DNA of 64,000 nucleotides from Lysobacter sp. ISL-50. GTDB lineage: Bacteria; Pseudomonadota; Gammaproteobacteria; Xanthomonadales; Xanthomonadaceae. Shown piece by piece: positions 34,661 to 50,610 of the stretch. The stretch covers positions 1 through 64,000 of the forward strand of contig NZ_JAGGRI010000020.1 of assembly GCF_018612875.1 (NCBI RefSeq), in the 5' to 3' direction. Made by a program: the position numbers and the translations under genes. The notes under the pieces were generated by a model. That model was not told the origin of the DNA. It saw only the letters and a list, made by a program, of their open reading frames with translations, and ran no database searches. Numbering within the stretch: the stretch's first letter is position 1; each line of letters begins with the position of its first letter.

Positions 34661-35098
34661 TTACTCCGTTGCGGCGCCGCGCAGGTGCGCGACGCATTTG
34701 AGTTCGATCGCGATCGGCGTGGGCAGCGCGGTGATGCCCAGCGTAGTGCGGCACGGAGCGCGGTCGATATCCGGGAAATACTCCGCCCACACCGCGTTAT
34801 AGGCGGTGAAATCGCGCTCCATGTCGGTCAGGTAGACGGTGACATCGACCAGATCGTCCCAGCTCGCGCCGCTGGCCTGCAGCACCGCGCGCACGTTGGC
34901 GAACACCGAGCGGCACTGCATGTCGATGTCGTACGCGATCAGCCGGCCCTCGGCATCGTGGACATTGCCGGGTATGGCGTTGCTGGCCGCGTCGCGCGGG
35001 CCGATGCCGGACAGGAACAGCAGATCGCCGACCCGGCGCGCATGCGGGTACAAGCCGACCGGCCTGGGCGCGTCGCCGGTGCGTACCGACCGGCTCAT
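34661..35098 (-). CDS. RidA-family deaminase, likely 2-aminomuconate deaminase
   Basis: A 145-residue RidA/YjgF-fold protein. [32 protein letters not shown] and the arginine-containing [10 protein letters not shown] fit the RidA ligand pocket, and the operon position fits NbaF/AmnD-type 2-aminomuconate deaminases that release ammonia. The assignment to this substrate rests on context. Its ATG overlaps the carbonic anhydrase stop by four bases (35095-35098). It lies five bases upstream of the dioxygenase gene. Confidence 0.85.
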
Positions 35099-35823
35099 CG
35101 CGGCGAGCCGCCGTGGGTGGAATGGACCTTGGCGATGGCGCGCTCGTAGGCCGGTTGCAGGCTCTCGAACGAATCCACGTTCATGCCGGTGTCGTGCACG
35201 CGGCCGTTGCGCAGGCTGTAGACCCAGCCGTGCACGCTCAAGGGCTGGCCGCGCGACCAGGCGTCGCGCACCACCGTGGTCAGGCAGACGTTCTGCACCT
35301 GCTCGATCGCGTTGAGCTCGCACAGGCGGTCGTGACGCTCGCTCTCGTGCACGTGGGCGATGCAGCCCACGTGCTTGTCGGCGACATCGCTGACATGGCG
35401 CAGCCAGTTGTCGGCCAGGCCCACGCGCAGCCCGTGCAGGGCCGCGTGCACGCCGCCGCAGCCGTAGTGGCCGACGACCAGGATGTGCTTGACCTTGAGC
35501 ACATCGACCGCGTACTGGATCACCGACAGGCAGTTCAGGTCGGTATGCACCACCACGTTGGCGATGTTGCGGTGGACGAAGACCTCGCCCGGCGCCATGT
35601 CGATGATCTGGTTGGCCGGAACGCGCGAGTCCGAGCAGCCGATCCACAGATACTCCGGCGCCTGCTGATGCGAGAGGCGGTCGAAGAACTGCGGGTCTTC
35701 GGCGTTGATGCGTTCCGACCACTCGCGATTGCGTTCGAGCAGATCGTCCAGCGTGGTCGAGGCGCCGGCGTTGAGCTCGCCGGTCGCGCCGGAATTGTTG
35801 GAACTTGAATCCTTGGAACTCAT
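35095..35823 (-). CDS. beta-class carbonic anhydrase
   Basis: A 242-residue beta-carbonic anhydrase interconverting CO2 and bicarbonate. Zinc ligands C63 (IGCSDSRVPA, with D65/R67 dyad), H119 and C122 (VVGHYGCGGVHAAL) are present, so it should be active. A Ser/Asn-rich start (SSKDSSSNNSGATGELNAG) precedes the domain. It is embedded between the aldehyde dehydrogenase gene (7 bases) and the deaminase gene (4-base overlap) in the kynurenine operon, possibly to handle CO2 released by the decarboxylase; that link is inference. Confidence 0.93.
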   Translation of the reverse strand: MSSKDSSSNNSGATGELNAGASTTLDDLLERNREWSERINAEDPQFFDRLSHQQAPEYLWIGCSDSRVPANQIIDMAPGEVFVHRNIANVVVHTDLNCLSVIQYAVDVLKVKHILVVGHYGCGGVHAALHGLRVGLADNWLRHVSDVADKHVGCIAHVHESERHDRLCELNAIEQVQNVCLTTVVRDAWSRGQPLSVHGWVYSLRNGRVHDTGMNVDSFESLQPAYERAIAKVHSTHGGSPR

Positions 35824-35830
35824 GCAGCGG

Positions 35831-37258
35831 TCATCCCAGGTGAAGACCGACGTTCTTCGCGTCGGTGAAGAAACGCATGGCCTCGATACCGCCTTCGCGG
35901 CCGAGTCCGGACGCGCCGGTGCCGCCGAACGGCGTGCGCAGGTCGCGTTGCAGCCAGGTGTTGATCCAGACCATGCCCACGTCAAGGCGCGCGGCGACGC
36001 GGTGGGCGCGGTTGAGATCGCGCGTCCACAGCGAAGCGCACAGGCCGTAGTCGCTGGCGTTGGCCAGGGCGAGGGCGTGTTCGTCGTCGTCGAAGGACTG
36101 CAAGGTCGCGACCGGGCCGAAGATTTCCTCGCGATTGCTCACGCAGTTCGGGCCCAGGCCTTCGATCAGCGTGGGCGCGACGTACCAGCCCGGCCGATCC
36201 AGCGCCGAACCGCCGCACAGCACGCGGCCGCCCTCATGGCGGGCGCGGGCCAGCGCCGCCATCACCTTGTCGAAATGCGCCTGCGAGACCAGCGGGCCGA
36301 GCGTGGTAGTTTCATCGGAGGGCTCGCCGATCTTCAGCGCCAGCGCGCGCTCGACCAGCGCGTCGCGGACTTCGGCGTAGATGCCGCGCTCGATCAGGAT
36401 GCGCGAACCGCATAGGCAGATCTGCCCGGAGTTCTGGAACGCCGAGCGCACCAGCACGTCGAGGTTCGCGCGCCAGTCGCTGTCGGCGAAGATCAAGGTC
36501 GGGTTCTTGCCGCCCAGCTCCAGCGAGACCTTGCGCAGCAGCGGCGCGGCGATGCCGGCGATGCGCCGGCCGACCGAGGTGCTGCCGGTGAACGACACCG
36601 CGCGCACGTCGCGGTGACCGACTAGCGCTTCGCCGACCTGCGGCCCCAGGCCGTGCACGATGTTCAGCACGCCGCGCGGAAAACCGATCTGCGCGCACAA
36701 CTCGCCGAGCATCGCCGCCGTGGCCGGGGTGACCTCCGAGGGCTTGGCCACCACGGTGTTGCCGGCCGCGAGCGCCGGCGCGATCTTCCAGGTGAACAGG
36801 TACAGCGGCAGGTTCCAAGGCGAAATCGTCGCGACCACGCCCAGCGGCGCGCGCAGGGTGTAGTTGAGCCCGGCCTGGCCGTGATGGGATTCGCTCGCGA
36901 ACTGGGTCGCGGCCTGGGCGAAGAAGCGCAGGTTGGCGACGGCGCGCGGAATCTCGGCCTCGCGCGCGAGCCGGATCGGCTTGCCGCCGTCGCGCGATTC
37001 GGCCTGGGCGAACTCGTTCAGGCGCGCCTGAAGGGCCGCGGCCAGGGCCTCCAGCCAATGCGCGCGTTCGCTGTGGGGCAGGCCCGACCAGGCTGGAAAC
37101 GCGGCCTTGGCGGCGGCGATGGCGGCCTCGACATCCTCCGCGTCGCCGGCGGCGACCTGCGCATACGGCTGCGCATTGGCCGGATCGAAGACGTCGAGCC
37201 AACGGCCGCCGGCCGCATCGCGCGGCTGGCCGTCGATCCAGTGCCGGAATCTTTGCAT
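35831..37258 (-). CDS. nbaE: 2-aminomuconate semialdehyde dehydrogenase
   Basis: A 475-residue NAD-dependent aldehyde dehydrogenase. Landmarks are TISPWNLPLYLFTWKIAPAL and KPSEVTP for NAD binding, the general base E in SLELGGKNPT, and the catalytic cysteine in NSGQICLCGSRI (first Cys by alignment). The C-terminus REEIFGPVATLQSFDDDEHA is typical. It oxidises 2-aminomuconate semialdehyde to 2-aminomuconate, feeding the RidA-like deaminase. It is the first gene of the kynurenine operon. Confidence 0.9.
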   Translation of the reverse strand: MQRFRHWIDGQPRDAAGGRWLDVFDPANAQPYAQVAAGDAEDVEAAIAAAKAAFPAWSGLPHSERAHWLEALAAALQARLNEFAQAESRDGGKPIRLAREAEIPRAVANLRFFAQAATQFASESHHGQAGLNYTLRAPLGVVATISPWNLPLYLFTWKIAPALAAGNTVVAKPSEVTPATAAMLGELCAQIGFPRGVLNIVHGLGPQVGEALVGHRDVRAVSFTGSTSVGRRIAGIAAPLLRKVSLELGGKNPTLIFADSDWRANLDVLVRSAFQNSGQICLCGSRILIERGIYAEVRDALVERALALKIGEPSDETTTLGPLVSQAHFDKVMAALARARHEGGRVLCGGSALDRPGWYVAPTLIEGLGPNCVSNREEIFGPVATLQSFDDDEHALALANASDYGLCASLWTRDLNRAHRVAARLDVGMVWINTWLQRDLRTPFGGTGASGLGREGGIEAMRFFTDAKNVGLHLG

Positions 37259-37696: not shown

Positions 37697-39325
37697 GTGG
37701 ATAGACGCAACTTTCTGGGCATGTCCGGACTCGGCATCGCCGGGCTCATGATTCCCTTCGGTAATCTCATCGCCGCCGAGGATTTGCTGGCGCCGCTGGA
37801 CGTGGGCAAGAAAAAGGTCTGGGCCGACGCCGCGCTCACCGCCGCCAAGGCCGCCGGAGCCAGCTATTGCGACGTGCGCATCGGCCGCTATCTGCGCCAG
37901 TTCGTGATCACGCGCGAGGACAAGGTCCAGAACGTGGTCAACACCGAATCGACCGGCATCGGCATCCGCGTGCTGGTCGACGGCGCCTGGGGCTTCGCCG
38001 CGACCAATCAGCTCAACAACGACGCGGTGGCCAAGGCCGCGCAGCAGGCCGCGGCGATCGCCCGCGCCAACGCCAAGAGCCAGACCGCCAAGGTCGAGCT
38101 GGCCAAGGCGCCCGGCGCCGGCGAGGTCAGCTGGAAGGCGCCGATCCGCAAGAACGCGATGGCGGTGCCGCTCAAGGACAAGGCCGATCTGTTGCTGAGC
38201 GTCAACGCTGCGGCGATCAACGCCGGCGCCGACTTCGTCAACTCGATCCTGTTCCTGGTCAACGAGCAGAAATACTTCGCCTCCACCGACGGCTCCTACA
38301 TCGATCAGGACGTGCACCGCATCTGGGCGCCGCTGACGGTCACCGCCATCGACAAGGCCAGCGGCAAGTTCCGCACCCGCGACGGGCTGTCCGCGCCGAT
38401 GGGCATGGGCTACGAATACCTGGATGGCGCGGCCGCGGGCAAGATCGTCTCGCCCAACGGCGTGATCACCTATCACAAGTCCTACGACATGCTCGGCGAC
38501 GCGGTCGCCGCGGCCAAGCAGGCGCGCGAGAAGCTCACCGCGCCTTCGGTCAAGCCGGGCAAGTACGATCTGGTGCTCGATCCTTCGCACACTTGGCTCA
38601 CCATCCACGAATCCATCGGCCATCCGCTGGAACTCGACCGCGTGCTCGGCTACGAAGCCAACTACGCCGGCACCAGCTTCGCCACGCTCGACAAGCTCAA
38701 GGCCGGCTTCAAGTACGGCAGCGATCAGGTCACCGTGTTCGCCGACAAGACCCAGGAAGGCAGCCTGGGCGCGGTCGGCTACGACGACGAGGGCGTCAAG
38801 ACCAAACGCTGGAACCTGATCAAGGACGGCGTGCTGGTGGACTATCAGGCCATCCGCGATCAGGCCCACATCCTGGGCAAGACCGAGTCCGACGGCTGCT
38901 GCTATGCCGATTCGTGGTCGTCGGTGCAGTTCCAGCGCATGGCCAACGTGTCGCTGGCGCCGGGCAAGAATCCGCTCAGCGTCGCCGACATGGTCAAGAA
39001 CGTGGAGAACGGCATCTACATCATCGGCGCGGGCTCGTTCTCGATCGATCAGCAGCGCTACAACGCCCAGTTCGGCGGCCAGCTGTTCTACGAGATCAAG
39101 AACGGCAAGATCACCGGCATGCTCGAAGACGTGGCCTATCAGATCCGCACGCCGGAGTTCTGGAATTCCTGCGCCGCGGTCTGCGACCAGAGCGACTACC
39201 GCTTCGGCGGCTCGTTTTTCGACGGCAAGGGCCAGCCCGGACAGGTCTCGGCGGTCTCGCACGGTTCCAGCACGGCGCGGTTCAACGGCGTCAACGTCAT
39301 CAACACCGCCCGCAAGCTCGGCTGA
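37697..39325 (+). CDS. tldD: TldD-like metalloprotease with Tat-like signal
   Basis: A 542-residue TldD/PmbA-family protein. The N-terminus MDRRNFLGMSGLGIAGLMIP has a twin arginine, hydrophobic stretch and an AA-type end (NLIAAEDLL), so it may be exported by Tat. The zinc motif is H304-E305-S-I-G-H309 followed by PLELDRVLGYEAN; a third ligand is expected in the C-terminal cysteine/glycine region (NSCAAVCDQSDYRFGGSFF). Canonical TldD works in the cytoplasm with TldE on peptide substrates. It starts with GTG at 37697 and is followed 20 bases later by tldE. Confidence 0.9.
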   Translation: MDRRNFLGMSGLGIAGLMIPFGNLIAAEDLLAPLDVGKKKVWADAALTAAKAAGASYCDVRIGRYLRQFVITREDKVQNVVNTESTGIGIRVLVDGAWGFAATNQLNNDAVAKAAQQAAAIARANAKSQTAKVELAKAPGAGEVSWKAPIRKNAMAVPLKDKADLLLSVNAAAINAGADFVNSILFLVNEQKYFASTDGSYIDQDVHRIWAPLTVTAIDKASGKFRTRDGLSAPMGMGYEYLDGAAAGKIVSPNGVITYHKSYDMLGDAVAAAKQAREKLTAPSVKPGKYDLVLDPSHTWLTIHESIGHPLELDRVLGYEANYAGTSFATLDKLKAGFKYGSDQVTVFADKTQEGSLGAVGYDDEGVKTKRWNLIKDGVLVDYQAIRDQAHILGKTESDGCCYADSWSSVQFQRMANVSLAPGKNPLSVADMVKNVENGIYIIGAGSFSIDQQRYNAQFGGQLFYEIKNGKITGMLEDVAYQIRTPEFWNSCAAVCDQSDYRFGGSFFDGKGQPGQVSAVSHGSSTARFNGVNVINTARKLG

Positions 39326-39345
39326 CCGGCGCAGGAGAATCCAAC

Positions 39346-40680
39346 ATGAGCATTTTCACCGAAGCCCAGTCCAAAGCCATCCTCGACAAGGTCATCGCCC
39401 TGTCCAAGGCCGATGAGTGCACCGCCAGCCTGACCGGTTCGATCGAAGGCAACGTGCGGTTCGCGCTCAACAACATTTCCACCAGCGGCATCGTCAGCGA
39501 CGTCAGCCTGGCCGTGCAGGTCGCCTTCGGCAAGCGCGTGGGCACCGCGACCATCAACGAGTTCGACGACGCCGCGCTCGAACGCGTGGTCCGCCGCGCC
39601 GAGGATCTGGCGCGCCTGGCCCCGGAAAATCCCGAGTTCGTTCCGGCGATCGACAAGCAGACCTACAAGTCCAGCCCGACCTTCAGCGCCGCCACCGCCG
39701 CGATCACGCCCGATTACCGCGCCAAGGTCGCCGCCGACGCGATCGCGCCGTGCCGCGAAAACAAGCTCACCGCGGCCGGCTTCCTGGAAGACGGCCAGAG
39801 CTTCGTCGCCATCGCCAACAGCAAGGGCAACTTCGGCTACCAGACCTCGACCGGCTTCAACTACACCTGCACCGTGCGCACCGACGACGGCCGCGGTTCG
39901 GGCTGGGTCGGGCGCAACCTGCAGGATTCGACCGACTTCAAGGGCGAGTCCGACGTGCGCGTGGCCATGCGCAAGGCCACCGAGTCGGCCGAGGCCAAGG
40001 CGCTGGAGCCGGGCAAGTACACGGTGATCCTGGAGCCGCACGCGGCCGCCGGCCTGATCTCGTTCATGATGGCGTTCTTCGACGCGCGCCAGGCCGACGA
40101 AGGCCGCAGCTTCCTGTCGAAGAAGGGCGGCGGCAACAAGCTCGGCGAACTGGTCTACGACTCGCGCGTCAACATCAGCGCCGATCCCTGGGATTCGCGC
40201 GCACCGGTGCTGCCCTGGGACCAGGACGGCCTGCCGCGCGAGAAAATGGCGATCATCGAGAACGGCAAGGTCGCCTCGCTGAACTATTCGCGCTATTGGG
40301 CGCAGAAGCAGGGCAAGAAAGCGGTCGGCGCGCCCGGCAACCTGCTGATGGCCGGCGGCGACAAGTCCACCGCCGAGCTGATCAAGGGCACCCAGAAGGG
40401 CATCCTGGTCACCCGCACCTGGTACATCCGCATGGTCGATCCGCAGACCGTGCTGCTGACCGGCCTGACCCGCGACGGCACCTTCTACATCGAGAACGGC
40501 GTGATCAAGCATCCGGTGAAGAATTTCCGCTTCAACGAATCGCCGGTGATCATGCTCAACAACATCGAAGAACTCGGCCGTCCGGTGCGCGTGGCCGGCG
40601 ACGAGTCCAGCTTCGTGATGATGATCCCGCCGATGAAGCTGCGCGATTTCACCTTCACCTCGCTGTCGGACGCGGTCTGA
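39346..40680 (+). CDS. pmbA: TldE/PmbA-like protein
   Basis: A 444-residue TldE (PmbA) homologue that lacks the HExxxH zinc motif, as expected for the inactive partner of TldD. It has no signal peptide (MSIFTEAQSKAILDKVIALS). Landmarks: TVILEPHAAAGLISFMMAFF, EGRSFLSKKGGGNKLGELVY and GTQKGILVTRTWYIRMVDPQ. GCAGGAG lies 8-14 bases before the ATG. It should form the TldD/E heterodimer with one or both flanking TldD-like proteins, but those appear to be exported while this one is not. Confidence 0.92.
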   Translation: MSIFTEAQSKAILDKVIALSKADECTASLTGSIEGNVRFALNNISTSGIVSDVSLAVQVAFGKRVGTATINEFDDAALERVVRRAEDLARLAPENPEFVPAIDKQTYKSSPTFSAATAAITPDYRAKVAADAIAPCRENKLTAAGFLEDGQSFVAIANSKGNFGYQTSTGFNYTCTVRTDDGRGSGWVGRNLQDSTDFKGESDVRVAMRKATESAEAKALEPGKYTVILEPHAAAGLISFMMAFFDARQADEGRSFLSKKGGGNKLGELVYDSRVNISADPWDSRAPVLPWDQDGLPREKMAIIENGKVASLNYSRYWAQKQGKKAVGAPGNLLMAGGDKSTAELIKGTQKGILVTRTWYIRMVDPQTVLLTGLTRDGTFYIENGVIKHPVKNFRFNESPVIMLNNIEELGRPVRVAGDESSFVMMIPPMKLRDFTFTSLSDAV

Positions 40681-40775
40681 CCGGGTGACCCGGGCGGCGC
40701 GGCCGGTGCATCGGCCCGCCGCCCGCCGCTTCGTCGCCGCATCACGCCCCTTGTCTTCCTGCGAGTCTGTCCGCT

Positions 40776-42401
40776 GTGCAACGACGCGATTTCCTCAGTT
40801 TCACCGGCCTGGGCCTGGCCGGCCTGGCGCTTCCCTACGGCCGCAGCATCGCTGCCGAAGCGCTGCTTGAACCGGCCGACACCGCGCAGCGCCGGCGTCT
40901 GGCCGACATCGCCCTGAACGCCGCGCGCGAAGGCGGCGCGGATTATTGCGATGTGCGCATCGGCCGCTATCTGCGCCAGTCGGTCATCACCCGCGAAGCG
41001 CAGGTGCGCAACATCGTCAACGCCGAATCGGCCGGGATCGGCATCCGCGTGCTGAGCCAGGGCGCGTGGGGCTTCGCCGCGGTGGCACATGCGAACCCGG
41101 ACACGGTGGCCGCCGCGGCGCGTCAGGCCGTGGCGATCGCGCGCGCCAACGCCCGCGTGCTCACGCGCAAGGTCGAACTGGCGCCGGTCAGCGGCGTCGG
41201 CGAGGTCCGCTGGGCCACGCCGGTGCGCAAGAACGCCATGGCGGTACCGATCAAGGACAAGGTCGATCTGCTGCTCTCGGTCAACGCCGCCGCGCTCAAG
41301 GCCGGCGCCGATTTCGTCAATTCGACCTTGTTCGCCATCAACGAACAAAAATACTTCGCCTCCACCGACGGCAGTTACATCGACCAGGACGTGCACCGCA
41401 TCTGGCTGCCGCTGACCGCGACCGCGGTCGACAAGGCCAGCGGCAAGTTCCGCAGCCGCGACGGTTTGTCCGCGCCGATGGGCATGGGCTACGAATACCT
41501 CGACGCCGATCCGGCCGGAAAATTCGCCTTGCCCGGCGGCCTGACCGGTTACGGCCGCTCTTACGACGTGATCGAGGACGCCGCCGCCGCCGCGCGCCAC
41601 GCCCGCGCCAAGCTCAAGGCGCCGTCGGTAAAACCGGGCAAATACGATCTGGTCCTGGACCCGTCCAATCTGTTCCTGACCATCCATGAGAACGTCGGCC
41701 ATCCGTTGGAACTCGACCGCGTGCTCGGCTACGAGGCCAACTACGCCGGCACCAGCTTCGCCACCCTGGACAAGCGCGATCAGGGTTATCGCTACGGCAG
41801 CGAGGTGGTCAACTTCGTCGCGGACAAGACCCGCCCCGGCAGCCTGGGTGCGGTCGGCTACGACGACGAGGGCGTGAAAACCCGCGAGTGGGACCTGATC
41901 CGCGACGGCATCCTGGTGGACTATCAGGCCACGCGCGATGAAGCGCATCTGCTCGGCCACAAGCAGTCGCACGGCTGCAGCTATGCCGACTCGTGGTCGA
42001 GCGTGCAGTTCCAGCGCATGGCCAACGTGTCGTTGAAGCCGGGCAAGCAGCCGCTGAGCGTGGCCGAGATGGTCAAGGGCGTGGAGCGCGGCCTGTACGT
42101 GCACGGCCGCGGCTCGTATTCGATCGATCAGCAGCGCTACAACGCTCAGTTCGGCGGGCAGTTGTTCTTCGAGATCAAGAACGGCCAGGTGACCGGCATG
42201 ATCGAGGACGCGGCCTACCAGATCCGCACGCCGGAATTCTGGAATTCCTGCGTGGCGGTGTGCGACGAACGCGACTTCCGCCTGGGCGGCTCGTTCTTCG
42301 ACGGCAAGGGCCAGCCCAGCCAGGTCTCGGCGGTGTCGCACGGGTCGAGCACCTCGCGCTTCAACGGCATCAACATCATCAACACCGCGCGTGCGCTGTA
42401 A
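40776..42401 (+). CDS. tldD: second TldD-like metalloprotease with Tat-like signal
   Basis: A 541-residue paralogue of the protein at 37697-39325, similar along the whole length. The start MQRRDFLSFTGLGLAGLALP again has twin arginines and a hydrophobic stretch. The zinc motif is H304-E305-N-V-G-H309, at the same residue numbers as in the first copy, so the signal segments are equal in length too. The GTG at 40776 is the start. The duplicate probably arose by tandem duplication with tldE kept between. Whether both pair with one TldE is open. Confidence 0.9.
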   Translation: MQRRDFLSFTGLGLAGLALPYGRSIAAEALLEPADTAQRRRLADIALNAAREGGADYCDVRIGRYLRQSVITREAQVRNIVNAESAGIGIRVLSQGAWGFAAVAHANPDTVAAAARQAVAIARANARVLTRKVELAPVSGVGEVRWATPVRKNAMAVPIKDKVDLLLSVNAAALKAGADFVNSTLFAINEQKYFASTDGSYIDQDVHRIWLPLTATAVDKASGKFRSRDGLSAPMGMGYEYLDADPAGKFALPGGLTGYGRSYDVIEDAAAAARHARAKLKAPSVKPGKYDLVLDPSNLFLTIHENVGHPLELDRVLGYEANYAGTSFATLDKRDQGYRYGSEVVNFVADKTRPGSLGAVGYDDEGVKTREWDLIRDGILVDYQATRDEAHLLGHKQSHGCSYADSWSSVQFQRMANVSLKPGKQPLSVAEMVKGVERGLYVHGRGSYSIDQQRYNAQFGGQLFFEIKNGQVTGMIEDAAYQIRTPEFWNSCVAVCDERDFRLGGSFFDGKGQPSQVSAVSHGSSTSRFNGINIINTARAL

Positions 42402-42472: not shown

Positions 42473-43174
42473 GTGAACCGGGCGCAGTTCCTGCGGCTGA
42501 TGCTCGGCGCCGCCGCCGGCGCGTGGCTGGCGCGTTCGCCGCCGGCGCGGGCGGGCGCCGACTACGATTTCTGGTTCACCCGGCTCAAATACGATTCCGG
42601 CGACTGGGACGTGGATCAGCGCATGCCGGCGAACCTGATCACCTCGCTGATCGACTACACCAACCTGCGCGTGGACCCGAAGGAACACGTGCTGGCGCTG
42701 GCCGATCCGAAGATGCTGACCGCGCCGTTCTGCTATCTGGCCGGGCACAAGCTGGTCGAATTCAATCCGGACGAGCGGCGCAATTTCGAACGTTATGTGC
42801 GCAATGGCGGTTTCGTGTTCGTGGACGACTGCAATCACGACATCGACGGTTTGTTCGCGAAGTCGTTCGAAGCGCAGATGGCGAAGATCTTCGGCGCCAA
42901 GGCGCTCAAGCGCTTGCCGAAGAACCACCCGATCTACCGCAGCTTCTTCGTCTTCGACGGCCCGCCGGCGACCGGCTTCGAGCTCAATGGCTGGGGCGAC
43001 GATCTGGTGCACGATTATTTGCGCGGCATCGACATCGACGGCCGGCTCGGGTTGCTGTACAGCAACAAGGACTATGGCTGCGAGTGGGATTACGACTGGC
43101 GCAACAAGCGGTTTTTGGCCGAGGACAATACGAAGTTCGGGGTCAATATCGTGATGTATGCGTTGAATTCGTGA
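42473..43174 (+). CDS. DUF4159 protein with signal peptide
   Basis: A 233-residue protein with an N-terminal signal (MNRAQFLRLMLGAAAGAWLA) and a DUF4159 domain: FWFTRLKYDSGDWDVDQRMP, FCYLAGHKLVEFNPDERRNF, NGGFVFVDDCNHDIDGLFAK. DUF4159 has a flavodoxin/GATase-like fold and often occurs with MoxR and DUF58 genes. The GTG at 42473 was chosen for the signal. It may be the last gene of the TldD transcript or the first of the MoxR group; a large hairpin separates it from MoxR. Confidence 0.85.
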   Translation: MNRAQFLRLMLGAAAGAWLARSPPARAGADYDFWFTRLKYDSGDWDVDQRMPANLITSLIDYTNLRVDPKEHVLALADPKMLTAPFCYLAGHKLVEFNPDERRNFERYVRNGGFVFVDDCNHDIDGLFAKSFEAQMAKIFGAKALKRLPKNHPIYRSFFVFDGPPATGFELNGWGDDLVHDYLRGIDIDGRLGLLYSNKDYGCEWDYDWRNKRFLAEDNTKFGVNIVMYALNS

Positions 43175-43226
43175 GCCGGGAGTAGGGCGTCGAGCTAGTG
43201 ATTGTGCAAGGACGCGACGGCAGTTG

Positions 43227-43351
43227 CCCCCTTTAAAAAAGGGGGAGGCGACCGCGAAGCGGACGCGGGGGATTTGCTTTTGATTTTGCTGTTGCGCGGG
43301 AAGGGCAAAGCAAAAGCAAATCCCCCCTAGCCCCCCTTTTTCAAAGGGGGG
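43227..43351. repeat. large nested palindrome (CCCCC...GGGGG)
   Basis: CCCCCTTTAAAAAAGGGGG and CCCCCCTTTTTCAAAGGGGGG sit at the two ends, and inside them GGGGGATTTGCTTTTG pairs with CAAAAGCAAATCCCCC. The outer arms are hairpins on their own, the inner pair forms a larger stem over about 125 bases. This structure lies between the DUF4159 and MoxR genes and may block or modulate read-through. Confidence 0.85.
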
Positions 43352-43399
43352 AACTTTGACGCTGTCGTTTGGGGCAGCGTCGTTTCATGGGAAGCGTAG

Positions 43400-44407
<1,008 letters not shown>

Positions 44408-44505
44408 GCGGCGGTGAACGGCATCGCGATCGGCCATCGTGCCGGCATCGCCGCGTCCGCGGCGGCGGCCGCGCGTGCATGCGCGCCCAGCCGCGGGAGC
44501 CGCCC

Positions 44506-45399
44506 GTGCACGATCTGATTCCGCCGAAAGTGCGCGCGCGCCTGCGCAACCTGCACCTGACCTCCAAGCGCGCGGTCGGCACCCACGGCATCGGCATGCA
44601 CAGCAGCCGCAGCCGCGGCGCCGGCCTGGAATTCGCCCAGTACCGCGCCTACGAGCCCGGCGACGAACTGCGCCAGATCGACTGGAAACTCTACGCGCGC
44701 TCGGACCGCTTCTTCGTGCGCGAGGCCGAACGCGAAAGCCCGCTGGCGATCTGGCTGTTGCTCGACGCCACCGCCTCGATGCGCCAGGAAGACGCGGCGC
44801 GGCCGGGTTGGTCGCGACTGGACGCGGCCAAGGCGCTGAGCGCTTGCGTGGCCGAACTGGCGCTGCGCCAGGGCGACCGCTTCGGCCTGATCGTGCTGCG
44901 CGGCGACGGCCTGCGCCTGCTCGCGCCCGCGGCCGGCGCGCGCCAGCGCGATCGCCTGCTGCTGGAACTGCACACCGTGTCGGCGCAGGGCGCGTGGCCG
45001 GCGGCCGAGCAATTGCGGCCGCTGTGGGAGCGCATCGGCGCCGGCGATCTGGCGCTGATGATCGGCGACGGCTTCGATGAAGACGCGGTCGCCATCGCCG
45101 AGCGCCTGGCTTCGGCGCGGCGCGAAGTGCTGAGCCTGCGCATCGTTACCGCAGAAGAACGCGATTTTCCGTTCCGCGGCGGTTACCGCTTCCGCGACCC
45201 GGAAACCGGCGAAGAACTGCTTGGCGACGGCGCAGCGCTGCGCGATGAATTCCTCGCCCGCTTCGCCGCCGCGCGCAAGGCGCTGGACGCGCGCCTGGAC
45301 GCCAGCGGCATCCGTCACGCCGAGTACGTGCTCGACGAAGAACTCGATCTGCCTCTGCGCCGTCTGTTCGGCGCGCGCGATGCGATGGAGGCGTCGTGA
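44506..45399 (+). CDS. DUF58 (VWA-like) protein
   Basis: A protein of about 297 residues with the DUF58 signature: RAVGTHGIGMHSSRSRGAGL, YRAYEPGDELRQIDWKLYAR and FVREAERESPLAIWLLLDAT, the last beginning the VWA-like metal-binding fold (LDATASM). DUF58 proteins are the usual partners of MoxR. The GTG at 44506 has GGGAG seven bases before it and gives the familiar HDLIPPKVRARL start; an ATG at 44479 is an alternative. Its stop overlaps the start of the next gene (GTGA). Confidence 0.88.
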   Translation: MHDLIPPKVRARLRNLHLTSKRAVGTHGIGMHSSRSRGAGLEFAQYRAYEPGDELRQIDWKLYARSDRFFVREAERESPLAIWLLLDATASMRQEDAARPGWSRLDAAKALSACVAELALRQGDRFGLIVLRGDGLRLLAPAAGARQRDRLLLELHTVSAQGAWPAAEQLRPLWERIGAGDLALMIGDGFDEDAVAIAERLASARREVLSLRIVTAEERDFPFRGGYRFRDPETGEELLGDGAALRDEFLARFAAARKALDARLDASGIRHAEYVLDEELDLPLRRLFGARDAMEAS

Positions 45400-46574
45400 C
45401 GCCGGTGCTGTTGCTGCCGATCGGCCTGGCCGCGCTGGCGGCGCTGGCGATCCCGCTGCTGATCCATCTGGCCCGGCGCAGCGAACAGCGGCCGACCGAT
45501 TTCGCCGCGTTGCGCTGGCTGCGGCAAAAACCCAAGCCGCGTCATCGCATCCGTTTCGATGAGTGGCTGTTGTTGGCGCTGCGCCTGTTGTTGCTGGCGG
45601 CGCTGGCGCTGCTGCTGGCCCGGCCGGCGCTGTTCGGCGCGCACAGCGACACGCCCTGGGCCGTGGTGGTGCCCGGGGTCGACGCCAAGGCCGCGATTGC
45701 GCAGGACGGATCGCGGGGCCTGGAATGGCATTGGTTGGCGCCGAGGTTCCCAGCGCTCGATCGCCCGGCGCCGACGTCAGTACAGCCGGTCGCCAGCCTG
45801 CTGCGTGAGTTGGATGCGACGTTGCCGGCCGAGGTCGCCTTGACCGTGTACGCACCGCGACGGTTGACCGGCGCCGATGGCTCGCGCCTGCAACTGTCGC
45901 GGCCGCTGCAGTGGCGGATCGTGGACGGCGCCGTGACCGATGCGTCCGCGCCCGCGTCGCCGCGTTCGCCGCCGCCGCAGATTCGCTACGCCGCCGATCG
46001 CGCCGCGGCCCTGCCGTATCTGCGCGCCGCCATCGCCGCGGGCGTCGATGCGAACGCCGCGGGCGATCCCGCATCGGCGTCCATCGCGCCGATCGAACAA
46101 GCCTTCGACCCGCAGGGCCGCTCGTTGATCTGGCTGGCGCCGGGCCCGGTGCCCGCGGCGGTGAGCGCGTGGGTGGAGCAGGGCGGCAGCGTGTTGATCG
46201 ATGCCGACAGCCGCTGGCCCGGTGCGGCGTTGCGGTTCGACGCGCCGGTCTGGCGCGATGGCGACGGAACGCTGCGCATCGAAGGCGCGCCGTTCGGACG
46301 CGGCCGCGTGCTGCGCCTGACCGGGCCGTTGTCGCCGCGCGCCTGGCCGCAGATGCTGCAACCCGGATTCGCCCAGCGCTGGCTCGCTTTATTCGAACCG
46401 GCCGTCGCGCAACCGGCGCGAGTGCTGGCGCAGGATTACGCGCCCAGCGCGGGCGGGCCGTCGTTCGCGCGGCCGCCGCTGGATCTGCGGCCGTGGCTGG
46501 CGCTGCTGATCGCCTTGTTGTTCCTGATCGAGCGCTGGTTCGCCACCGGCCGTCGACGCGGAGCGGCGCCATGA
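45396..46574 (+). CDS. BatA-like membrane protein
   Basis: A 392-residue membrane protein. The N-terminal BatA-type region has TM1 (LLLPIGLAALAALAIPLLIH), the LARRSEQRPTDFAALRWLRQ linker and TM2 (LLLALRLLLLAALALLLARP). A periplasmic-side domain of mixed alpha/beta character follows, and a C-terminal TM segment closes it (WLALLIALLFLIERWFATG). It starts with GTG at 45396 overlapping the DUF58 stop and ends by overlapping the next gene's ATG (46571-46574). It is probably a scaffold for the MoxR group. Confidence 0.87.
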   Translation: MTPVLLLPIGLAALAALAIPLLIHLARRSEQRPTDFAALRWLRQKPKPRHRIRFDEWLLLALRLLLLAALALLLARPALFGAHSDTPWAVVVPGVDAKAAIAQDGSRGLEWHWLAPRFPALDRPAPTSVQPVASLLRELDATLPAEVALTVYAPRRLTGADGSRLQLSRPLQWRIVDGAVTDASAPASPRSPPPQIRYAADRAAALPYLRAAIAAGVDANAAGDPASASIAPIEQAFDPQGRSLIWLAPGPVPAAVSAWVEQGGSVLIDADSRWPGAALRFDAPVWRDGDGTLRIEGAPFGRGRVLRLTGPLSPRAWPQMLQPGFAQRWLALFEPAVAQPARVLAQDYAPSAGGPSFARPPLDLRPWLALLIALLFLIERWFATGRRRGAAP

Positions 46575-48760
46575 GCGCGGCGCAACGCCTGCATCGATAC
46601 CTGCGCGATGCGCGGCGCCGGCGCGGCGTCGACCTCGCGCTGACCTTGCTGCCGTGGTTGGCGCCGGTCGCGCTACTGATCGCTCGCTGGCAGGGCGCGG
46701 CATCGGCCGGGATCGCGGTGTTCGTGGGCCTGGGCTTGATCGTAGCGATCGCCTGGCGACATGGCTCGCGATTGGATACGCCGTGGCTGATCCGCCGGCT
46801 CAACGCCTTGCGCCCCGACATGGACGACAGCGCCGATCTGTTGTTCGCGCGCGAGGAAGCTCTAAACGGGCTGCAACGCCTGCAACAGGCGCGGCTGCGG
46901 CAGCGGATCGAAACCGCACCGACAACGGAATTGCGTCCGGCGTGGTCGCGGCGCCGCTCGATCGTGTCGCTGCTGCTCGCCGCGCTCGCGTTGGCGGCTG
47001 TGGCGTTGTGGCCGGCCGCATCGGCGCCGGCCGCGCTCGATCGCTTGTCGCCATCGCCGCAAATCGCCGCCGCGCCGGGCCAAGCCCGGCTGATCCAGCA
47101 GGCCTTGCGCATCGACTCCCCGGCGTACACCGCGCTGCCGCCGCGCAACGAGCCGAGCCTGGAAGGCCGCGTCGCCGAAGGCGCACGCCTGCGCTGGACG
47201 CTGCGCTTCCAACCGCAGCCCAGCGCAGTGGCGCTGGTGTTCCACGACGGCCAGCGGCTGGAGCTGAGCCGCGCCGGCGAGGACTGGAGCGCGCAACGGG
47301 TGATGACGAAGTCGGTGCTATATCGCATCGAAGCGACCAGCGCGCCGCCAGCGCAGACGCGCAGGCTCTATCGCATCGACGTCACTCCCGACCGTGCGCC
47401 GCAACTGCGCGTAGTCGAACCCGATCGCGGACTGAGCCTGATGACGCCCGGGCAGAAGGCCTGGCCGCTCGCGTTCGAGGCCAGCGACGATTACGGCCTG
47501 GCCGACAACGCGCGGCTGCGCATCACCCTGGCCCAGGGTAGCGGCGAGAACATCACTTTCCGCGAGCAGTTCGTCAACGTGCGCGGCAGCGGCGGTGCGC
47601 GGCTCAAGCGTTACCGGCACCGGCTGGATCTGGCCGCGCTCGGCTTCGCCGTCGGCGACGATCTGATCGTGCAACTCGCGGTCGACGACCATCGCGCGCC
47701 CAAGCCGCAGAGCGCCTTGAGTCCGAGCCTGATCCTGCGCTGGCCGGCCGATCTGGGCAGCGAGGCCACCGGCATCGAGGGCATGGTCAAGACCACCTTG
47801 CCGGCGTACTTCCGCAGCCAGCGCCAGATCATCATCGACGCCGAAGCGCTGATCGCGCAGCGGCGCAAGCTCGACGGCGAGCGTTTCCTCAAACGCTCGG
47901 ACGAGATCGGCGTGGATCAGCGCCTGCTGCGGCTGCGCTATGGCCAGTTCCTCGGCGAAGAAGCCGAGGGCGAGCCGAAGTTGCCGACCAGCGACAGCGA
48001 ACAGACGGCAGACGACGCGCACCCGACCGAGGCCGGCGCCGCGACCAAGTCCGAGGCGCACGACGATCACGACGATCACGATCACGACCACGCGCCCGAC
48101 GCCAAGCCGGCGGTGTTCGGCGAAGAAGGCTCGGTGCTGGAGCAATACGGCCACACCCACGATCACGCCGAGGCCGCGACCTTGCTCGATCCGCAGACCC
48201 GCAAGCTGCTCAAGTCCGCGCTCGACGAGATGTGGCAATCGGAGCTGCATCTGCGCCAGGGCCATCCGCAACAGGCCTTGCCGTATGCGTACAAGGCGCT
48301 GGCCTTCATCAAGCAGGTGCAGCAGGCCAGCCGCATCTATCTGGCGCGGGTCGGGCCGGAGTTGCCGCCGATCGACGAAACCCGCCGGCTCGGCGGCGAA
48401 CGCAAGGGACTGGCGCGGCGCGGCGATGAGCTGCGCGCGGCCACCGCGTCCGATCCGACCCTGACCGCGTTGTGGCGCGAACTCGAACCCGGCGCGGGCG
48501 GCGCGGCATCGGCGTCGATCGACTACGCCGCGCTGGAGCGCTGGCTGCGCGAACACGACGAGCGCGTGCCCGATCCGCTGGCCTTCGCCGCCGCGTTGGC
48601 GGCCTTGCGCGATCAACCCGATTGCGTGAGCTGCCGGGCGCAACTGCGCGGCCTGTTGTGGCCGCTGTTGAACCGGCCGGCGGCGTCGGTGCGGCCGCGC
48701 GACGGCGGCGACGCCAGCGACCGGCGTTACTTCGACGCCTTGCGGCAGGCGCGGCCATGA
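46571..48760 (+). CDS. large membrane protein, DUF4175-like, with His/Asp-rich segment
   Basis: A 729-residue membrane protein. Two or three N-terminal TM segments (LTLLPWLAPVALLIARW; ASAGIAVFVGLGLIVAIAWR; IVSLLLAALALAAVALWPAA) precede a long soluble part with beta-rich sections (APQLRVVEPDRGLSLMTPGQ, FEASDDYGLADNARLRI), resembling DUF4175 proteins in MoxR operons. Residues about 497-507 are HDDHDDHDHDH and 528-532 HTHDH, which could bind divalent metal. A helical region follows. Overlaps both neighbours by four bases. Function unknown. Confidence 0.83.
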   Translation: MSAAQRLHRYLRDARRRRGVDLALTLLPWLAPVALLIARWQGAASAGIAVFVGLGLIVAIAWRHGSRLDTPWLIRRLNALRPDMDDSADLLFAREEALNGLQRLQQARLRQRIETAPTTELRPAWSRRRSIVSLLLAALALAAVALWPAASAPAALDRLSPSPQIAAAPGQARLIQQALRIDSPAYTALPPRNEPSLEGRVAEGARLRWTLRFQPQPSAVALVFHDGQRLELSRAGEDWSAQRVMTKSVLYRIEATSAPPAQTRRLYRIDVTPDRAPQLRVVEPDRGLSLMTPGQKAWPLAFEASDDYGLADNARLRITLAQGSGENITFREQFVNVRGSGGARLKRYRHRLDLAALGFAVGDDLIVQLAVDDHRAPKPQSALSPSLILRWPADLGSEATGIEGMVKTTLPAYFRSQRQIIIDAEALIAQRRKLDGERFLKRSDEIGVDQRLLRLRYGQFLGEEAEGEPKLPTSDSEQTADDAHPTEAGAATKSEAHDDHDDHDHDHAPDAKPAVFGEEGSVLEQYGHTHDHAEAATLLDPQTRKLLKSALDEMWQSELHLRQGHPQQALPYAYKALAFIKQVQQASRIYLARVGPELPPIDETRRLGGERKGLARRGDELRAATASDPTLTALWRELEPGAGGAASASIDYAALERWLREHDERVPDPLAFAAALAALRDQPDCVSCRAQLRGLLWPLLNRPAASVRPRDGGDASDRRYFDALRQARP

Positions 48761-50610
48761 GCGCGGGCATGAACCTCGAACTCGCCGTCGCCCTCGTGCT
48801 GGGACTGGCCGCGATCCTAGCGACCGCGCGGCTGTTGTATCGCCAGTACCGTAGCGATGCGTCGACGCGCTCGCGCGGCTGGCGCATGGCGGTGCTGCTG
48901 ATCGCGCAACCGCTGATCGCCGCGCTGCTGTATTTCGCCGTGTTGCCGCCGCGGTTGCCGGGTCAGGCCGGAACCATGATCGTCAGCACTGCCGGCACCG
49001 CCGACGGCGCCAGCCAGGGCGCCGGCGATATCCGCGTGGCCTTGCCCGAAGCGCCGCCCGCCGCGGTCGGCGAACGCGTTGCGGATCTGGCCAGCGCGCT
49101 GCGCCGCCATCCCGGCACCCAGCGCTTGCGCGTACTCGGCGCGGGTCTGCCGCCGCGCGATCGCGACGCCGCGCGCGGGCTGGCGATCGAATTCGTCGCC
49201 GCGCCATTGCCGCGCGGGTTGAGCGGGCTGTGGTCGCCGGCGCGGGTCGGCGAAGGCGAAGAGTTCTGGCTGTCCGGACGGGTCGAAGCCATGCCGGGCG
49301 GCAGCGTGGAACTGCTCGATCCAGGCTCGCAGCGGGTGGACCGCGCGGAGCCGCGCGGCGACGGCGGCTTCGCCCTGAGCGCGGTCGCGCGCAGCGCCGG
49401 GTTGGCGATGTTCCGGTTGCGTTTGCGCGATGCGCGCCAGCAGGTGATCGAACAGGTCGACGTGCCGGTCGCGATCGAAGCGCGGCCAGCGCCGAAGCTG
49501 TTGTTGCTGGCGGGCGCGCCCGGTCCCGAGCTCAAGTATCTGCGCCGCTGGGCCGCCGACGCCGGGCTCAAGCCGCACACCCAGATCAGCGTCGGCGCGG
49601 GGCTGCAGCTCGGCGATGCGCCGTTGAGTCTGAACGTGGCGACCCTGGCCGGATTCGATCTGCTGGTGTTGGACGAACGCGCTTGGGAATCGCTCGGCGA
49701 AACGCAGCGCAACGCGGTGATCGCGGCGGCGCGCGGCGGCCTGGGCGTCTTGTTGCGCGTCGGCGGGCCGTTGTCGCCGCGCACCCGCGCGCAGTTGCGC
49801 GAACTGGGGTTCGAGCCCGGTGCCGGCGCGGACGCGAGCGAACTGCGTCTGCCGGCGCTCGGTGCCGACGAAGCGGCCACGCGCGCGCGCCTGGGGCCGG
49901 GCAGCGTCGACGCGCCGCGTCCGCGCGATCAGGCGCCGGCCGAGGCGCCGGTATTGACGCGGCGCGTGCTGGCGCTCGACGGCGCCACCTTGCAACCGCT
50001 GGCGCGCGATGCCGACGGCAAGGCGTATGCGGCGTGGCGCGCGCTCGGGCAGGGACGGATGGCGCTGTGGGGCCTGAGCGACAGTTTCAAGCTGGTGCTG
50101 GCCGGGCGCGACGATCTGCATGGCCGGCTGTGGAGCGATGCGTTGTCGACGCTGGCTCGGGCGCGTTCGAGCGAAGCGGCGCGCATCGACGGTTGGCCGC
50201 GCCAGGATGAGCGCACGCGCATGTGCGGCCTCGCCGACGGCGCGCAGGTTCTGCCGCCGCGCGGGCCGGCGGTGGCGCTGGCGATCGATCCGGATGCGGG
50301 ACGCGAGCGCTGCGCCGGGTTCTGGCCGGCGTCGGCGGGCTGGCATTCGCTGCGGCAAGGCGAGCGCTTGCTGCCGTTCTATGTGCGCGCTCGCGATGAA
50401 GCGCCGGGGTTGCGGGCCAGCGAGTTGCGCGAGGCCACGGCGGGGTTGAGTCTGGCGTCGGCGCGACGCGGTAGTGCGGCGGGACTGCCGGCCGCCGATG
50501 GCGAACGCGGCTCGCCTTGGCCGTGGTTCTTCGTCTGGCTGATGCTCAGCGCGGGCTTGTGGTGGTTCGAGCGTTCGCTGCGCGGTCGCTATTCGCCGGC
50601 GGCGGAGTAG
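48757..50610 (+). CDS. membrane protein with GATase-like domain, last gene of the MoxR operon
   Basis: A 617-residue protein with two N-terminal TM helices (NLELAVALVLGLAAILATAR; MAVLLIAQPLIAALLYFAVL) and one at the C-terminus (PWPWFFVWLMLSAGLWWFER). Between them lie Ig-like sections (FWLSGRVEAMPGGSVELLDP) and an alpha/beta part with KLLLLAGAPGPELKYLRRWA and LLVLDERAWESLGETQRNAV, as in GATase-like membrane proteins that close such operons. The ATG overlaps the previous stop by four bases. Function unknown, but probably structural or regulatory within the MoxR group. Confidence 0.83.
   Translation: MSAGMNLELAVALVLGLAAILATARLLYRQYRSDASTRSRGWRMAVLLIAQPLIAALLYFAVLPPRLPGQAGTMIVSTAGTADGASQGAGDIRVALPEAPPAAVGERVADLASALRRHPGTQRLRVLGAGLPPRDRDAARGLAIEFVAAPLPRGLSGLWSPARVGEGEEFWLSGRVEAMPGGSVELLDPGSQRVDRAEPRGDGGFALSAVARSAGLAMFRLRLRDARQQVIEQVDVPVAIEARPAPKLLLLAGAPGPELKYLRRWAADAGLKPHTQISVGAGLQLGDAPLSLNVATLAGFDLLVLDERAWESLGETQRNAVIAAARGGLGVLLRVGGPLSPRTRAQLRELGFEPGAGADASELRLPALGADEAATRARLGPGSVDAPRPRDQAPAEAPVLTRRVLALDGATLQPLARDADGKAYAAWRALGQGRMALWGLSDSFKLVLAGRDDLHGRLWSDALSTLARARSSEAARIDGWPRQDERTRMCGLADGAQVLPPRGPAVALAIDPDAGRERCAGFWPASAGWHSLRQGERLLPFYVRARDEAPGLRASELREATAGLSLASARRGSAAGLPAADGERGSPWPWFFVWLMLSAGLWWFERSLRGRYSPAAE

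Follow-up and report, generated by a model that had tools for sequence, protein, structure and literature searches.

We have analyzed a stretch of 64,000 nucleotides from Lysobacter sp. ISL-50 (contig NZ_JAGGRI010000020.1, positions 1 to 64,000, hereafter the window; genome G000, 5.9 Mb) that contains an array of three genes of the TldD/PmbA family, all on the forward strand. The first, TldD1 (37697..39325), codes for a TldD/PmbA metalloprotease of 542 residues with a GTG start. It begins with a putative signal peptide of the twin-arginine translocation (Tat) type, MDRRNFLGMSGLGIAGLMIPFGNLIAA (residues 1-27, 37697..37777, GTG start), carries the motif HExxxH at residues 304-309 and has an aspartate, Asp509, in the position of the cysteine that serves as third metal ligand. 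Twenty bases after its stop codon starts TldE, of the PmbA type (39346..40680, 444 residues), with an ATG preceded by a Shine-Dalgarno sequence and with neither a signal nor HExxxH. The third gene, TldD2 (40776..42401, GTG start, 541 residues), is a second Tat-type TldD, 73.6% identical to TldD1, with its own predicted signal peptide MQRRDFLSFTGLGLAGLALPYGRSIAA (40776..40856, GTG start). Both TldDs have their motifs at the same positions: the twin arginine (RR) occupies residues 3-4, HExxxH residues 304-309, and the cleavage site, IAA/E, ends at residue 27. An earlier note on this DNA had described the RR signals with AA-type ends, the coinciding zinc motifs and the plain start of the TldE between them. 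All of this holds in the window, where neither HExxxH nor the TatP motif was found in TldE, and extends to the relatives described below.

The three Pfam domains of the family (PmbA_TldD; PF01523, PF19290 and PF19289) scored above their gathering thresholds in TldD1, TldE and TldD2. The cut-offs of the NCBIfam equivalogs for canonical TldD and PmbA were missed, with 124 and 83 bits for TldD1 against the required 635 and 513, and 62 against 438 for TldE. The predicted model of TldD1 found its best structural match in Escherichia coli TldD (5njc, template modelling (TM) scores 0.70/0.78); aligned by structure, it is 21-22% identical to the TldD chains of E. coli. The best matches of the TldE model were 6j6a, 1vpb, 1vl4, 3qtd and 5nj5_B, with TM-scores of 0.78-0.81 for 6j6a, 1vpb and 5nj5_B. 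The likeness to the E. coli TldD/TldE pair (PDB 5NJ5 and others; PMC5810440) includes the Pfam domains, the folds of both subunits and the presence of HExxxH in TldD only. The differences are the Tat-type signal on TldD, the aspartate in place of Cys454, the genes for DUF4159 and MoxR proteins alongside and the frequent presence of two TldDs per TldE. TldD and TldE genes are reported to occur in nearly all archaeal genomes and in about 60% of the bacterial ones, with a function described as elusive (PMC5810440).

We have compared the array with 79 related loci (L006-L084) taken from the best 80 of 576 relatives, excluding the loci of the own genome (L001-L005). By their record titles they belong mostly to Xanthomonadales and Sphingomonadales, and among the matches listed the closest relatives of the locus were Lysobacter species, with 88-89% identity over TldD1. 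Counting matches of at least 150 bits in these loci only, there were 129 TldD and 78 TldE genes, and HExxxH was present in all 129 TldDs and in none of the TldEs. Signals were called by rules, with the TatP default motif as given in the text of PMC1182353. The contrast was complete: RRxF, with phenylalanine at +2, was found in 129/129 TldDs, and the TatP motif in 129/129 TldDs and 0/78 TldEs, by which a chance occurrence of RR was rejected. A cleavage site of [IV]AA with E, Q, D, A or S as the next residue was present in 124 of the 129, the other five being ISAE, PAAT and three outside the pattern, two of these IAAG. Besides, the hydrophobic h-region was modest (mean Kyte-Doolittle value 1.31), and of the 128 TldDs in which a cleavage site could be recognised (one had none by that pattern) 118 had a basic residue in the c-region. 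The sequence traits of Tat substrates, i.e., RR motif, weak h-region, basic c-region and cleavage site, are all present in TldD, and TatC was found in the 14 genomes tested out of 14 as well as in the own genome. Judged by these traits the TldD signals look Tat-type, and the general secretory (Sec) route is disfavoured.

The TldEs of the same loci start with ATG in all 78 cases, mostly with M-S-I-type N-termini. In 61 of them no upstream in-frame start codon exists, so that no hidden signal is possible there. One TldE (L064) exceeds a simple hydrophobicity threshold, yet without RR. A tagged TldD precedes TldE in 78 of the 79 loci, at a distance of 11-31 bases in 74 of 78. The order was TldD-TldD-TldE in 41 loci, TldD-TldE in 28, TldD-TldE-TldD, as in the window, in nine, and TldD only in one; two TldDs thus accompany a single TldE in 50 of the 79. 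In a quick tree, which came with long-branch warnings, the TldD copies located after TldE formed one group (SH-aLRT 99, Shimodaira-Hasegawa-like approximate likelihood ratio test) among the second copies that lie upstream. Most simply, TldD2 of the window is an old second copy relocated behind TldE; other duplicates fall elsewhere in the tree. We have confirmed, then, that a Tat-type signal restricted to TldD is real and far wider than one locus. Two arrangements outside these loci also deserve mention: L123 (genome G294) has two complete TldD-TldE pairs, one behind the other, ahead of DUF4159, with the motif on TldD only, and in L127 (G373) a second, isolated Tat-type TldD lies at the module's far end, in the opposite orientation.

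The signal goes together with a change at the metal site. The metal ligands of E. coli TldD are His262, His267 and Cys454, none of them conserved in TldE (PMC5810440). In the sequence alignment Asp509 of TldD1 falls on the third of these; the assignment was made from that alignment and not from the predicted model, where confidence is low. Aspartate occupied this place in all 129 signal-bearing TldDs, and cysteine in the 13 canonical TldDs with a readable motif (13/13) and in 10 aligned TldDs without signal. The substitution itself was already known: for Asp-type TldDs of some species, such as Gemmatimonas sp., aspartate has been suggested as a substitute of Cys454 in binding the metal (PMC5810440). 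The coincidence with the Tat signal and with DUF4159 appears to be new here; the main text of PMC5810440 contains no word beginning with 'periplasm-', and the link between the three comes from our analysis. As for the reason, a free cysteine ligand may suit an oxidising compartment badly.

A second signal-bearing group was found among 385 genomes of another class of the phylum, that of G024, where three matches reached 1e-60 or better (G024, G852 and G991). G852 and G991, at 47% and 44% identity, have a TldD with an RR signal and a TldE without a hydrophobic signal, and stand beside the signal-less G187 in the quick tree, with the same long-branch warnings. It is likely that the TldD-only signal arose more than once. 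These two TldDs keep the cysteine, which speaks against a strict rule joining aspartate to export. Within the stretches retrieved with their arrays, 10.7 kb and 19 kb long and the only DNA of these two genomes searched for DUF4159, no DUF4159 or MoxR match was found. The TldE of G852 (L149), which is not one of the 78, does match the TatP motif at residues 14-15; no hydrophobic stretch follows by eye, and we regard this match as a false hit. Six other loci (L118-L122 and L131; genomes G246, G130, G190, G344, G350 and G298) hold signal-less TldD-TldE pairs that keep the cysteine, with about 30-36% identity to TldD1, and represent another paralogous group, found in other genomes of the class to which the own genome belongs.

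The array heads a longer run of genes on the same strand. After TldD2 comes a stand-alone DUF4159 protein (42473..43174), whose N-terminus, R-A-x-F-L and a hydrophobic stretch, is an export-type signal without RR. It is followed by a MoxR-type AAA+ ATPase (43400..44407, from Pfam), a DUF58 protein with a weak VWA match (44476..45399, the start being approximate) and a BatA N-terminal double-transmembrane protein (45396..46574; PF07584, TIGR02226). Then come two large putative membrane proteins without Pfam match but conserved in the module, one with an N-terminal hydrophobic stretch (46571..48760) and the other with hydrophobic stretches at both ends (48757..50610), all of them seen by eye. 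The module thus reads TldD (one or two)-TldE-DUF4159-MoxR-DUF58-BatA plus the two large proteins, and its order TldD-TldE-DUF4159-MoxR recurs in other loci. Among 14 Tat-type loci that we annotated, DUF4159, MoxR and DUF58 were each present in all, BatA and the first large protein each in 13, and the second large protein in 12; the exceptions were L059, which has neither large protein, and L123, in which the second large protein and a BatA match are missing. Neither this context nor the cysteine-to-aspartate change was part of the earlier note.

The association between Tat-type TldD and DUF4159 could be followed in 398 genomes of one phylum. The TldD1 and DUF4159 searches are treated here as the same draw, the handles of both being in agreement. 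TldD1 gave strong matches (E <1e-200) in 13 genomes and weaker ones in 10, and DUF4159 was present in 106. These 13 strong-match genomes coincide exactly with the set of 13 in which DUF4159 is a small separate frame, of 229-410 codons and a few kb from TldD; none of the other 93 carriers, with frames of 578-1253 codons, belongs to them (Fisher's exact p = 6e-17, the genomes being related and not independent). We fetched stretches of 17-19 kb for 12 of these 93 long-frame loci. MoxR and DUF58 were present in 12/12, and TldD or TldE in 0/12; in all six of the 12 that we checked for fusion, DUF4159 forms the C-terminal portion of a BatA protein. RL3501 of Rhizobium leguminosarum is presumably a BatA-DUF4159 fusion as well. 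The Tat motif was absent from TldD in the seven weaker-match genomes inspected out of the 10 (G237, G286 and G310 were left out) and from the TldD of Nonomuraea, another outgroup. A search at the level of class matched four of 369 genomes, all already known, and added no new members. The separate DUF4159 protein mostly has R-A/S/G-x-F-L where the Tat motif has RR, which is kept in 17 of 75 by one pattern, and this N-terminus resembles a Tat signal whose second arginine has been lost in many lineages.

Our reading of these data, to which we give a probability of about 0.62, is that they mark an exported branch of TldD/TldE in which the dimer would leave the cytoplasm by Tat, with TldE as a hitchhiker, and work in the envelope. 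Signals, motif conservation, gene order and co-occurrence are observed directly, and so is the situation in G122. In this genome (100% complete, 0% contamination) two domain searches found no TldD/PmbA match outside the array; all three members are inside, two signal-bearing TldDs and TldE, and no signal-less TldD was seen. If TldD were exported and TldE retained, the TldE of G122 would be left partnerless. Two metagenome-assembled genomes, those of L072 and L083, likewise gave no other TldD/PmbA member, a completeness rating being given for G122 and not for these two; such genomes were three of the 30 searched. With a signal on TldD and none on TldE, the latter is probably carried along into the envelope. 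In E. coli TldD/E is reported to be active solely with both subunits, the heterodimer being the preferred form (PMC5810440). The earlier note had proposed three options, namely that TldE hitchhikes on TldD, that TldE is a partner only in part of a new periplasmic TldD, or that the signals are retained anchors. The lack of the motif in all 78 TldEs, the need for the heterodimer in E. coli and the case of G122 make hitchhiking the best supported of the three; the interpretation offered there is supported in part.

We would picture the process as follows. In the cytoplasm either copy of TldD would acquire its metal and pair with TldE, and the folded dimer would cross the membrane by Tat through the single signal of TldD, which would be cut at the conserved [IV]AA/E-type site. 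In the periplasm the dimer could trim small unfolded peptides, as its relative can: E. coli TldD/E degrades unfolded peptides and leaves casein and bovine serum albumin uncleaved (PMC5810440). By gene order and co-occurrence, the dimer would be the extracytoplasmic part of an envelope module formed by MoxR, DUF58, BatA and DUF4159. MoxR, DUF58 and Bat-type genes stand in a row also in Bat operons and in the RL3499-RL3502/cmdA-cmdD operon of R. leguminosarum, and mutants of the MoxR-led RL3499-RL3502 are reported to have envelope and cell-shape defects, the operon being important for envelope integrity (PMC5700661, PMC3893208). This phenotype and the peptide degradation in E. coli are what lead us to propose a periplasmic peptide-trimming enzyme for the envelope module. 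A broader version, which we hold tentatively and at somewhat less than even odds, is that an entire lineage within the ancient TldD/E protease has relocated to the periplasm. A dedicated TldE without signal would cross by Tat on one or the other of two Asp-type TldDs that bear signals, the dimer would supply the peptidase activity of a machine built from MoxR, DUF58 and BatA, in which DUF4159 would have become separate, with a signal of its own, and the TldD-only signal would have arisen at least twice.

Export by hitchhiking has counterparts. It is established for the hydrogenases and for the 135 kDa PaoABC (PMC10924467, PMC4273604), and like in these and in the formate dehydrogenases one tagged subunit would take untagged partners with it. 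TldD1 and TldE, with calculated masses of 58.1 and 48.1 kDa, are together smaller than PaoABC (PMC4273604). The known Tat hitchhikers are redox enzymes with cofactors, whereas the pair described here, if the reading is true, would be a peptidase. In the Creative Commons-licensed literature of PubMed Central we found no paper joining TldD, TldE and 'twin-arginine', none with TldD and DUF4159 and none with DUF4159. A TldD of Bradyrhizobium is listed elsewhere as cytoplasmic, by prediction. An exported branch with envelope genes at its side and a changed metal site would give a handle on what that branch cuts, and the question of hitchhiking can be put to a direct test in genomes like G122, where the searches gave no other TldD.

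Several observations weigh against the export of a TldD/TldE dimer. In 12 of the 13 Tat-type genomes there are, outside the array, two more members of the TldD/PmbA family, which could in principle pair with this TldE and make the hitchhiking argument weaker for those genomes. In the 398-genome draw a TldD match was missing from one of the six other genomes of the family and from two of the three other genomes of the order. The TatP motif was found in just nine of the 73 DUF4159 proteins whose start was found (of 75), and the protein, mostly without the second arginine, may be exported by Sec. Confidence in the TldD1 model is low around the active site, with predicted local distance difference test (pLDDT) values below 50 at residues 301-327 and 508-517. 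TldD2 of the window has a weak Shine-Dalgarno match (-2.5 kcal/mol), and translation of TldD1 from an in-frame ATG at 37721 would leave out RR. Finally, the substrate and the envelope role are deduced from the gene neighbourhood, and even the reaction is uncertain, as the TldD/PmbA family also holds N-deacetylases (Vobruba 2022).

The further family members in those 12 genomes, together with the two TldDs per TldE in 50 loci (41 TldD-TldD-TldE and nine TldD-TldE-TldD), are also what keeps alive the option of TldE as a partner only in part. In that case TldD would be exported by Tat and be active without TldE, as a homodimer or as TldD1-TldD2, and TldE would stay in the cytoplasm with a canonical TldD; PMC5810440 cites a report of an active TldD homodimer from Sulfolobus. 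We consider this unlikely, given the three genomes with no other TldD/PmbA member found, the place of TldE after a tagged TldD in 78 of 79 loci and the situation in E. coli, where both subunits are needed and the TldD homodimer was too unstable to purify (PMC5810440). The signals could also be uncleaved N-terminal anchors that hold TldD and TldE at the inner membrane. The site of L126, a distant TldD copy, is poor (AVSLDQ) and would fit an anchor, and some Tat signals do serve as anchors. The cleavage site conserved in 124 of 129 TldDs, and still VSA/E in L124 and L125, at 65% identity to TldD1, disfavours the retained-anchor option of the earlier note and makes it improbable.

That the signals belong to Sec and have their twin arginine by accident is more improbable still. 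The motif does give false positives, in 7% of Gram-negative Sec proteins and in 15% of RR-bearing cytoplasmic proteins (PMC1182353). Against it stand RR and the phenylalanine at +2 in every one of the 129 TldDs, the basic c-region in 118 of 128 and the modest hydrophobicity. A folded partner, besides, would not be transported by Sec. The earlier note had named a mis-called TldD start among the findings that would refute it, and with it all three proteins would be cytoplasmic. To the ATG at 37721 and the weak Shine-Dalgarno match of TldD2 can be added that both TldDs of the window start with GTG. Over the relatives, the start codon nearest to the aligned TldD start was ATG in 41 of the 129, GTG in 51 and TTG in 37. 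A Shine-Dalgarno-like match preceded it in 118, for controls of 22/74 in MoxR, 22/73 in DUF4159 and 78/78 in TldE, and 48 of the 129 TldDs have no ATG at all between RR and residue 60. The TldD start is probably called correctly, and a general mis-call seems to us hardly credible.

Starts other than ATG are a feature of TldD within these loci, since ATG is used by MoxR in 68 of 74 and by DUF4159 in 54 of 73, and by TldE throughout. Our guess is that non-ATG starts in TldD against ATG in TldE may keep TldE in excess, with a partner ready for each TldD before export. Shine-Dalgarno strength as a cause of such an excess was unsupported (p = 0.12); the start codons alone differ.

Two other features of the window were noted. 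Between the DUF4159 and MoxR genes there is a long intergenic hairpin (43225-43355), which in a 151-base stretch has a minimum free energy of -88.7 kcal/mol and a z value of -8.7. Its 20-base core occurs in 122+116 copies in the genome with at most one mismatch, often as facing pairs, versus none for the reversed control. On the other side of the array, on the minus strand (34661-37258), lies an aldehyde dehydrogenase like 2-hydroxymuconic semialdehyde dehydrogenase, scoring below the cut-off of that family, and the frames adjoining it are, by eye, what we take to be a carbonic-anhydrase-like and a RidA-like protein.

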